Notes under the pieces: generated by a model
Databases searched by the model: none
What the model was told of the DNA's origin: nothing
Seen by the model: only the letters and a program-made list of their open reading frames with translations
Program-made: the position numbers and the translations under genes
Shown: positions 46,764 through 52,822 of the stretch, piece by piece
Layout: every line of letters begins with the position of its first letter
Numbering within the stretch: the stretch's first letter is position 1
Assembly: GCA_902538915.1 (NCBI GenBank)
Contig: CACBGZ010000001.1
Span: 1 to 64,000 of the forward strand
DNA: 64,000 bases
Reading direction: 5' to 3'
Origin: an uncultured Pelagibacteraceae bacterium
GTDB taxonomy: Bacteria > Pseudomonadota > Alphaproteobacteria > Pelagibacterales > Pelagibacteraceae

Positions 46764-47338
46764 TGTCTAATACTCCATTAATGCCTATGGCAACTGCTGT
46801 TTGGTTAGTTGAAAACACTACATTGACATTTAAACAAATTGCAAATTTTTGCAACATGCATGAAGTTGAAATTCAAGGTATAGCAGATGGGGAAGTAGCT
46901 AAAGGTATAAAAGCTTATAACCCTATAATATCAGGTCAACTCTCTAGAAATGAAATTGAATTGTCCTCCAAGGATCAAAATAGACCTCTTCAAATCAAAA
47001 ATACTGACATAGAAATTTCTAACAATGAACAAAAAATAAAAAGATATGTTCCTTTGTCAAAAAGACAAGACAAACCAGACTCTGCTTTATGGTTAATTAA
47101 GAATCATAATATTCTAAAAGACTCTCAAATATCAAGATTAGTTGGGATTACAAAAAATACTGTTACTTCTATAAGAAATAAAAGTTATTGGAATTTTAAT
47201 AATCTTAATCCAAAAGATCCTGTGGCTTTAAATCTTTTTTCCCAGAAAGAATTAGTTGAAGCAATTGAGAAGGCTGAAAGACGTATAAAAAGAGAAAAAA
47301 AAGAAAAGGATAAACAACAAAAGATTAATGCTCTTTAA
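46763..47338 (+). CDS. TrcR-like cell-cycle transcriptional regulator (DUF1013)
   Basis: A 191-residue protein of the alphaproteobacterial DUF1013/TrcR family. The N-terminal LMPMATAVWLVENTTLTFKQ and IADGEVAKGIKAYNPI are typical. A second helix-turn-helix-like stretch is visible at about 107-140 (KDSQISRLVGITKNTVTSI). The end is a Lys/Glu helix. In the family it binds DNA near cell-cycle genes; here that is an inference. It is followed by a hairpin (47367-47391) in front of rpsU. Confidence 0.85.
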   Translation: MSNTPLMPMATAVWLVENTTLTFKQIANFCNMHEVEIQGIADGEVAKGIKAYNPIISGQLSRNEIELSSKDQNRPLQIKNTDIEISNNEQKIKRYVPLSKRQDKPDSALWLIKNHNILKDSQISRLVGITKNTVTSIRNKSYWNFNNLNPKDPVALNLFSQKELVEAIEKAERRIKREKKEKDKQQKINAL

Positions 47339-47366
47339 GAATGAAAAATTATAGACATATTTTTTT

Positions 47367-47391
47367 AAAAGTGATATCAAATCGCCTTTTT
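47367..47391 (+). promoter_or_regulatory. Hairpin just upstream of the rpsU ribosome-binding site
   Basis: AAAAGTGAT and ATCGC-C-TTTT pair around the loop ATCAA (one G·T pair and one bulged C), ending in a five-T run directly before GGAGG (47392-47396). It could be a weak terminator for the trcR-like gene or a leader that controls S21 translation. Seen by inspection only. Confidence 0.5.
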
Positions 47392-47401
47392 GGAGGTGTT
47401 T

Positions 47402-47596
47402 ATTAAAATAGAAGTAAAAGATAATAATGTAGAACAAGCTTTGAGAGTTTTAAAAAGAAAACTTCAGAGAGATGGTTTTTTTAAGATTATAAAGCTGAAA
47501 AATACTTACGAAAAACCATCAGAGAAAAAAAAAAGAATTCTTCAAGAAAACATTAAAAGAGTAAAAAAATTAAATAAACTTAAAAATAGAATTTAA
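47402..47596 (+). CDS. rpsU: 30S ribosomal protein S21 (probable ATT start)
   Basis: S21 of 64 residues (MKIEVKDNNVEQALRVLKRK..., first residue read as Met), followed by the family's Lys/Arg-rich C-terminus. The only ATG/GTG/TTG codons in frame before the conserved part (TTG 47390, GTG 47396) lie inside the Shine-Dalgarno GGAGG at 47392-47396, so they cannot be used with it. ATT at 47402 has ideal five-base spacing and gives a normal N-terminus. If a standard start is required, the protein would instead begin MEVFIKIEV from TTG 47390. Confidence 0.8.
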   Translation: MKIEVKDNNVEQALRVLKRKLQRDGFFKIIKLKNTYEKPSEKKKRILQENIKRVKKLNKLKNRI

Positions 47597-47602
47597 GTTC
47601 AC

Positions 47603-47679
<77 letters not shown>

Positions 47680-47680
47680 A

Positions 47681-48937
47681 TCACATCAAATAAATATTTT
47701 TGAATATTCTCAAAAAGATATAAAAAAAACTAAACCCATATAGATAAGTTAAATTAATTTTTTTTGAAAAAAATTTTTTATAATTTAAATTATTGAATAT
47801 TAAAAAAATCATAATCAAGATTAATGGTTCATAATATTTGTGATAAATAGTGTTTTGTATATTTGACATGATTAACAAAAAAATAAAAATTAAATTATCT
47901 TTATGCAAAGTTGATAGATATATAATTAAAGATAAACTAAAAAAACTAATTATAAAAAAAATCAAATTATTATTAAATAAAATTTGTGATAACTGGAAAA
48001 AAACTCCTCCACCAGTGAAGCTAAATTGATAATTGAAGAAATAGGCTAAAATGGAAAAAAAAATTAAAATAAAGATTATGTTTGATTTAAGAAACAAAAT
48101 TATTTTTTTATAATCTAATAAAAAATATAAAACTGGTATTAAATGAAATAAAATAATTGAGCTGATGATTAATATTTTATTAGATATATTAAAACTCAAA
48201 CTTTTTGCAGCTTCATCTAAAGCAGGAGTTTTTCCAGCTGTAATGAAATTGATATCTAAAAAAAAAACGTAGTAAATCATTGGTGCTGATGCAGCAAAAC
48301 TAAATAAAACTAAAAACAAAAATTCTTTGAATTTTAATTTTTGAAAAAAATAATAAATAAAGTAGATATAAAATAACGAAAAATTAGGACTAATATAAGA
48401 AGAAGTTATTATTGAAATTAGAGTGCACCATGCAAATTTTTTTTGATTTCTCGCCAATAATAAGAATTTTAAAAAAAAATATATTGATAATATAAAAAAA
48501 ATTAAACCAGGTATTCTACTATCAGGCCATATAGCTAGTGAACGAAAAGTTGGTGATAAAAAAATTGATAATGCCAATAATCTTAAAGTAGTTCGATTTG
48601 TATCTTTAAATCTTAATTTAAGGCAACTATAAAATATCAAAATTAGGCCTAGGGAGATATGTAAATGAATTAGTCTTACAAAATCAAAGCTTAAACCAAA
48701 CTTTAGTAAGATTGATAAAAAAACAATATATACAGGTGAATGTCTTTGACCATAACTATCGTATTTTAGAAGAGTATTTTTAAAATCTTTTGAAAAATCC
48801 TCAAGAACAGGATTATATGCTTTTATCCAATCTAAATAAGATCCATAATTTAAGTTTTCATCAAAATAAAAACCAATTAATAAAGATATGTAAAGTAAAA
48901 ATAGTAATATTTTTTCTCTAAAATTTGCACTTTCCAA
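47681..48937 (-). CDS. Polytopic membrane protein, possibly GT-C type glycosyltransferase
   Basis: A 418-residue protein with about 10-11 membrane helices. After the first helix comes an acidic loop FDENLNYGSYLDWIKAYNPV and then YGQRHSPVYIVFLSILLKFG. This resembles the first extracytoplasmic loop of GT-C enzymes that use lipid-linked sugars, where a D-E/D-D pair is catalytic. No closer family is recognised, so the function is open. Phe, Ile and Leu content is extreme. It lies six bases after transaldolase, at the end of that operon. Confidence 0.6.
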   Translation of the reverse strand: MESANFREKILLFLLYISLLIGFYFDENLNYGSYLDWIKAYNPVLEDFSKDFKNTLLKYDSYGQRHSPVYIVFLSILLKFGLSFDFVRLIHLHISLGLILIFYSCLKLRFKDTNRTTLRLLALSIFLSPTFRSLAIWPDSRIPGLIFFILSIYFFLKFLLLARNQKKFAWCTLISIITSSYISPNFSLFYIYFIYYFFQKLKFKEFLFLVLFSFAASAPMIYYVFFLDINFITAGKTPALDEAAKSLSFNISNKILIISSIILFHLIPVLYFLLDYKKIILFLKSNIIFILIFFSILAYFFNYQFSFTGGGVFFQLSQILFNNNLIFFIISFFSLSLIIYLSTLHKDNLIFIFLLIMSNIQNTIYHKYYEPLILIMIFLIFNNLNYKKFFSKKINLTYLYGFSFFYIFLRIFKNIYLM

Positions 48938-52456: not shown

Positions 52457-52567
52457 TTATAATAAGAAAATTGCCATTAAAACCAAAACAATGACAACAG
52501 CGACAGTACCCCACAAGACAAATTTGGTGAAATTGTTCCAAGTTTTCTTATGGTCCTCATTATCCAT
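52457..52567 (-). CDS. aa3-type cytochrome c oxidase subunit IV-like peptide (36 residues)
   Basis: A minus-strand ATG frame reading MDNEDHKKTWNNFTKFVLWG, then a single membrane helix TVAVVIVLVLMAIFLL and stop. A short polar, His/Glu-rich N-terminus, a W-x2-F-T-K motif and one terminal helix are the pattern of the bacterial aa3 oxidase subunit IV family of alphaproteobacteria. It lies four bases after rpmJ and 11 before pntAA. Too short for firm proof, but the pattern is specific. Confidence 0.75.
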   Translation of the reverse strand: MDNEDHKKTWNNFTKFVLWGTVAVVIVLVLMAIFLL

Positions 52568-52571
52568 TTAA

Positions 52572-52697: not shown

Positions 52698-52710
52698 AAA
52701 ATTTATATGC

Positions 52711-52822
52711 CGGCAATGACCTACTCTCCCATATCTTAAGACAAAGTACCATCGGCGCTGAAAGGCTTAACTTCCGAGTTCGGAATGGGATCGGGTGTAA
52801 CACTTTCGCAATAATTACCGGC
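52711..52822 (-). rRNA. rrf: 5S ribosomal RNA
   Basis: Read on the minus strand, the 5' end GCCGGTAAT pairs with the 3' end ATTGCCGGC. The universal 5S core is present: ACACCCGATCCCATTCCGAA, CTCGGAAGTTAAGCC, then GCGCCGATGGTACTTTG and TGGGAGAGTAGGTC. No 23S or 16S gene adjoins; upstream lies a sugar epimerase gene. Ends are set from the terminal helix and may be off by a base or two. Confidence 0.96.

Follow-up and report, generated by a model that had tools for sequence, protein, structure and literature searches.

The rpsU gene of this SAR11 genome, which encodes ribosomal protein bS21, almost certainly begins translation at an AUU codon, and the leader sequences of its relatives show that the same start, replaced rarely by AUC or ACG, is used behind a strong Shine–Dalgarno (SD) sequence by nearly all members of the family that were read. 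In our best reading, this start would be gated by SD pairing together with the fidelity of initiation, as exerted by IF3 and/or by 30S subunits deficient in S21. In the window, that is, the 64,000-nt stretch of DNA analysed, rpsU lies on the + strand at 47402..47596 and runs from the ATT codon (47402..47404) to a TAA stop codon (47594–47596). Its 64-aa product, which begins with IKIEVKDNNVEQALRVLKRKLQ..., scored 57 bits against PF01165 (Ribosomal_S21), for which the curated cut-off is 27, and is therefore a bS21 protein; its core is conserved in the 239 loci read, and it is the single PF01165 copy in the source genome assembly (approximately 79% complete). The SD sequence GGAGGT (47392..47397, + strand) is fully complementary to the 16S tail, ...GGATTACCTCCTTTCT. 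Its GGAGG core (47392–47396) is overlapped at its two ends by a TTG (47390–47392) and a GTG (47396–47398) codon, and 5 nt (47397–47401) separate it from the ATT. The initial annotation had described this arrangement of the SD, the TTG, the GTG, and the ATT at 47402, and direct reading of the window confirmed its letters.

To follow the start codon across relatives, leaders were read in 239 loci of the order Pelagibacterales, which represent a selection: 59 loci came from the searches of the own genome, the genus, and the family, 80 from contigs of named genomes, 20 were further loci of the same genus obtained by the order search, and the last 80 stretches were chosen to cover every genus with a match along with more divergent copies from the window's genus. 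The searches among relatives found S21 in 52 of 61, 118 of 147, and 134 of 147 genomes. After the removal of identical stretches, 229 leaders were left, 221 belonging to Pelagibacteraceae (12 genera) and eight to a sister family; three copies with stop codons within the S21 gene (G098, G173, and G279) were retained in the leader counts. The start codon of the 221 family leaders was ATT in 206 cases, ATG in eight, ACG in four, and ATC in three. In the 11 genera besides the window's own (g2–g10, g12, and g13, each represented by 1–11 leaders) only ATT occurred, and both Candidatus Pelagibacter ubique records (L102 and L128) carried it as well. The family's start codon occupies the position at which the S21 genes of other Alphaproteobacteria begin with GTG or ATG. 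Codon 1 is nearly fixed among the isoleucine codons (206 ATT, 3 ATC, and no ATA), while the Ile codons 29, 30, 46, and 51 vary; however, codon 3 is likewise nearly fixed (ATA in 207 of 220), thus the synonymous-codon comparison of codon 1 carries little weight. The AUU start proposed from the window alone is nevertheless strongly supported by its conservation at the aligned position.

All 213 non-ATG leaders have an SD of −6.9 kcal/mol or stronger, that is, the conserved strong SD expected of IF3-repressed starts, and the mean SD energies of the family leaders were −11.5 for ATT, −11.9 for ATC, −12.1 for ACG, and −0.3 for ATG. The SD of the rpsU in the window (−12.5 kcal/mol) stands far above the norm of its genome, as in the rpsU of Flavobacterium: the genome median is −3.1 kcal/mol, and the value was equalled by only three of the 425 genes predicted in 464 kb of the source genome, a contrast that is rather understated since the start choice in this prediction favours strong SDs. 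GGAGG precedes nine of these 425 genes, 331 are without any SD-like tetramer, and 337 start with ATG. A scan of 504 ORFs in the same 464 kb for an SD followed by a non-canonical codon gave five matches, among which GGAGG belongs to rpsU alone; the other four have only AAGGA, two of them with an ATG 5–7 codons upstream and two falling into one ORF.

The occurrence of ATG in relatives had been named in the initial annotation as an observation that would speak against the AUU start, and it was indeed found in 8 of 221 leaders; all eight, however, are without an SD, which fits the idea that the strong SD accompanies the weak codon. One clade of seven leaders (support 0.98) consists of four ACG leaders with an SD and three ATG leaders without it, and the other five ATG leaders were placed elsewhere in the poorly resolved tree, which was built from the upstream gene and S21 of 220 sequences, has weak deep support, and puts the ATG cases in two places. 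Thus, the weak codon and the strong SD go together in these leaders and were lost together at least once, perhaps twice. Loss of the anti-SD in the ATG group was considered as well and rejected, as the 16S tail was normal in the three genomes of this group with a whole 16S gene (L510, L512, and L513). The 16S matches of G095, G086, G291, G264, and G100 (L504–L506 and L516–L524) were in pieces, which may reflect assembly, masking, or inserts.

We consider it probable, though far from settled, that the pairing of a weak start with a strong SD in these leaders serves as a regulatory device instead of a fixed setting. According to the switch that we infer, a short rpsU mRNA with a leader of approximately 15 nt would be held on the 30S subunit through SD pairing, and the initiator tRNA would then meet AUU with a third-base mismatch, which is normally rejected by IF3. 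The output of S21 would depend on access to the 16S tail, beside which S21 sits, and on how strictly the start is selected, both of which are influenced by S21 itself and by the initiation machinery. A shortage of S21 or IF3 would ease rejection and raise S21 synthesis, and once the subunits are complete, the AUU start would be throttled. IF3 control of the SAR11 rpsU is plausible by analogy with known IF3-repressed genes. A counterpoint to such a switch is given by the same eight ATG leaders, which show that the weak start is dispensable.

The main rival is that AUU and the strong SD simply set a constant S21 output without any feedback, which we judge to be possible but the less convincing account. 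Compensation between the start codon and the SD has been reported as a general trend (PMC5622118), and the ATG leaders manage without an SD, just as equal net strength would predict. However, an AUG codon with a weak SD could give a constant output equally well and seems to be the solution of most genes in this genome; a non-AUG codon has instead persisted across 12 genera and in the sister family, and switches from AUG to AUU were otherwise very rare, 1 of 61,358, in the data given in the same paper (PMC5622118).

The leader itself contains a conserved block with the geometry of a promoter. In all 221 family leaders, the motif T[AG]GAC[AT] is followed after 17 nt (218 leaders) or 18 nt (three leaders) by a −10-like TAnnnn element, which is preceded by TGn in 221 of 221 and ends with A in 201. 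In the window, these are the −35-like element TAGACA (47352..47357, + strand) and the extended −10-like element TG A TATCAA (47372..47380, + strand). The distance between the end of the −10-like element and the start codon ranges from 18 to 31 nt across the family and is 21 nt in 140 leaders, including that of the window. From promoter geometry with an extended −10 element, the mRNA would start approximately 14–16 nt before AUU (about 47386–47388 in the window), so the rpsU leader is probably about 15 nt long. A generic sigma-70 scan of 47300–47720 called no promoter, and the block was found by comparison only. When the motif was relaxed, 464 kb of the genome held 12 occurrences compared with 25.7 in shuffled sequences, so this genome does not commonly use a promoter of this type. 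Our best guess is that the block TAGACA-N17-TATCAA (47352–47380) is a promoter, but it may also be an operator.

The initial annotation had placed a leader hairpin directly before the SD, and an RNA structure at this position could govern initiation in the manner of other ribosomal-protein leaders, which we regard as very unlikely. The letters are present: a weak inverted repeat spans 47367..47389 (+ strand), many leaders from the window's genus contain the repeat AAARTG...CAYTTT, a single column pair switches from A-U to G-C with both sides altered in 21 of 78 leaders, the covariation score was reached by one of 500 shuffles, and a five-pair version is 68% paired compared with 32%–58% when slid along the alignment. 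As an RNA structure, however, the repeat is poorly supported by folding, consensus, and covariation. The leader folds no better than shuffled sequences (z of −0.45 to −0.71 for three short stretches and +0.67 for a 141-nt one), consensus folding yields no pair, just one of the seven pairs covaries clearly, and relatedness alone can beat shuffles of this kind. Moreover, the partner letters, as judged by eye, are missing in many AUU loci of other genera, and the repeat lies across the −10-like element of the block common to 221 of 221 leaders. Accordingly, no conserved covarying stem of the kind that defines a structured leader was found, and there was no Rfam match here at gathering scores. Another candidate, an SD-hiding hairpin at 47383–47398 suggested by a terminator scan, was rejected, as its outermost pair is not kept (C stands opposite A in 85 of 140 relatives) and most of its other pairs exist because of the T-run and the SD.

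The codons around the ATT leave little room for another start. Of the family leaders that do not use ATG (213 in total), 50 lack any in-frame ATG, GTG, or TTG after the previous stop codon, and in 151 the only canonical codons are the TTG at codon −4 and/or the GTG at codon −2, both of which overlap the SD. Only 12 leaders have another canonical codon upstream, including ATG at −7 (four leaders) and at −11 (four leaders), and no SD was seen before any of these 12. The distance between the SD and the start codon of the 213 leaders is 5 nt in 186, 6 nt in 13, 4 nt in nine, and 9 nt in five, and such shifts by single bases argue against a translated upstream stretch. A conserved canonical codon downstream of ATT was not found either, as 126 of the 213 leaders have none through codon 25. 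Translation from the TTG at 47390 (or the GTG at 47396), which would give a product beginning with MEVFIKIEVK and would be annotated by a gene finder, is thus barely credible: an open frame from the TTG is present in the ORF list and the codon stays in 154 of 213 leaders, but it overlaps the sole SD with nothing SD-like ahead of it, 11 loci of the window's genus have lost it or carry it out of frame and are left without any canonical codon (L025, L026, L045, L054, L087, L102, L103, L112, L126, L134, and L499), a stop codon separates the SD from the ATT in genera g9 and g12, in two of five g5 loci, and in one g4 locus (L170), and the GTG is kept in just 15 of 213. The argument that the only strong SD overlaps the TTG and GTG and leaves ATT as the start was therefore upheld, and rpsU belongs to the genes in which no canonical start is usable in frame.

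Non-canonical starts of rpsU seem to extend beyond the family. In the sister family of the order (L206–L212 and L219), all eight leaders have the strong SD AGGAGG followed after approximately 8 nt by ATA and GTT or GTC, which is most simply explained by an AUA start. Among the other Alphaproteobacteria, 179 genomes gave a match and 90 of them were read, namely the best 30 and 60 more near the top of the list with some entries skipped. The start was GTG in 38, TTG in 14, and ATG in 12; in the other 26, neither the expected codon nor the one preceding it was any of these three. Nine of these 26 loci (L221, L222, L224, L257, L268, L269, L271, L276, and L311) have no in-frame canonical codon since the last stop codon and show ATA, ATC, or CTG before GTT or GTA. 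In two (L277 and L279), the codon immediately before is canonical, and their starts are probably ordinary; in five of the remaining 15, a GTG lies at the SD three codons before the expected start, resembling the window. The findings as a whole suggest that the rpsU start may be misplaced by gene finders in many genomes of Alphaproteobacteria. SD strength did not differ between the start-codon classes of the 90 Alphaproteobacteria outside SAR11 (p = 0.58), so the evidence for a trade-off between start codon and SD is confined to the SAR11 family, where it comes from one or two switches. In the phylum outside the class, ATG was the start of S21 in 23 and TTG in one of 24 loci found among the 30 best matches. 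The control gene L27 started with ATG in 30 of 30 loci read in the family (median SD −4.2; 51 of 60 genomes had a match) and in 30 of 30 loci read in the class, the window's own included.

S21 genes of viruses were also compared. ATG or TTG was the start in 57 of 57 viral genes from IMG/VR (L403–L459) and in two known pelagiphages, which use ATG and TTG, respectively. In the 57 genes, the starts sit at the aligned start or at most three codons before it, and the inner isoleucine is mostly kept; it aligns with the AUU codon of the host gene, mostly after 1–3 extra residues. Perhaps this isoleucine is a fossil of the host start, and the viral genes have escaped host control. A wider reading, to which we give only tentative credence, is that across Alphaproteobacteria the start codon of rpsU senses the completeness of the 30S subunit and closes a feedback loop through start fidelity, not through a repressor. 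In that case, subunits lacking bS21 or short of IF3 would accept AUU, AUA, AUC, CUG, and ACG behind a strong SD and complete subunits would reject them; SAR11 would have fixed the most extreme form, and the S21 genes of related viruses, which begin with ATG or TTG, would escape the loop.

Two further components of initiation were inspected. The tRNA gene that the initial annotation had noticed after rpsU was identified as a tRNA-Met (CAT) at 47603..47679 (+ strand), 6 nt past the stop codon, and is taken as the initiator tRNA. The stretch read contained this tRNA gene in 34 of the 40 loci tested, the sister family included, and in 10 of the 12 genera sampled; in the window's genus, it usually follows rpsU directly. 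It was missing from the one g5 locus, the one g7 locus, and the four sister-family loci tested. From this arrangement, the tRNA-Met is probably co-transcribed with rpsU. Its anticodon stem is TCAGG/CCTGA or CAAGG/CCTTG, thus one of the three usual initiator G-C pairs is A-U, and having AGG/CCU for GGG/CCC may loosen start selection. Initiator tRNA stems with an A-U pair in place of one G-C pair occur in other Alphaproteobacteria. The infC gene of the window's genus (L313–L342) starts with GTG straight after a stop codon (TAAGTG) and without an SD in 27 of 27 parsed loci (30 read); since it does not use AUU, the link between IF3 and rpsU rests on analogy. Elsewhere in the window, the Rfam pntA sRNA model matched near the 5S rRNA gene at 52510–52571 and 52708–52822, both on the − strand.

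A nearly fixed AUU on a ribosomal protein gene throughout an abundant ocean family, with an apparent AUA in the sister family, is to our knowledge a new setting for non-AUG initiation, and together with the strong SD it suggests that S21 is metered through the accuracy of translation initiation. The natural pairs found in close relatives (AUU with SD, ACG with SD, and AUG without SD) represent ready test constructs. No report of an AUU-started rpsU was found in open-licence papers, and a term search in the Pelagibacter intergenic RNA study (PMC2704228) met neither rpsU nor S21. A 2024 review describes the regulation of rpsU in E. coli as unknown (PMC10931766). Non-AUG starts and S21 feedback are each of a known kind; for their combination, which is nearly fixed over a family and recurs with different codons elsewhere in the order and in some of the class, no precedent was found in the open-licence literature.

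Among known systems, the UUG of the enterobacterial rpsT (bS20) is also a weak start on a ribosomal protein gene and has been proposed to serve autoregulation, but UUG is a canonical weak start and, according to the review, this regulation is neither confirmed nor refuted (PMC10931766). The AUU of infC and the GTC of sigR are non-AUG starts repressed by IF3 (PMC5472188), and in vitro the reading of AUU by the CAU anticodon was reported to be disfavoured as IF3 rises (PMC10158994). The Escherichia coli infC likewise carries AUU on a gene of the translation machinery and is under IF3 autocontrol (PMC5472188), and rejection by IF3 is presumed for rpsU; the gene is a different one, however, and the SAR11 rpsU has a strong SD in an SD-poor genome; infC itself has GTG without an SD in the window's genus. 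In the Streptomyces sigR, as in rpsU, both the non-AUG start and the strong SD ahead of it are conserved, the latter there as AGGAGGTG (PMC5472188), but it encodes a sigma factor and is known from one genus, while rpsU encodes a ribosomal protein and has AUU, AUC, ACG, and probably AUA across an order. The rpsU of Flavobacterium johnsoniae and its relatives resembles that of SAR11 in that an outstanding SD stands out in a genome poor in SDs and the leader is short, with a predicted length of 25 nt there (PMC9976891), and mutation or depletion of S21 in Flavobacterium was reported to favour strong-SD reporters and rpsU itself (PMC9976891; reviewed in PMC10931766). There, the SD serves as the regulatory device with 9–13 pairs and −14 to −21 kcal/mol (PMC9976891), whereas the rpsU of SAR11 has approximately six pairs and a non-AUG start in addition.
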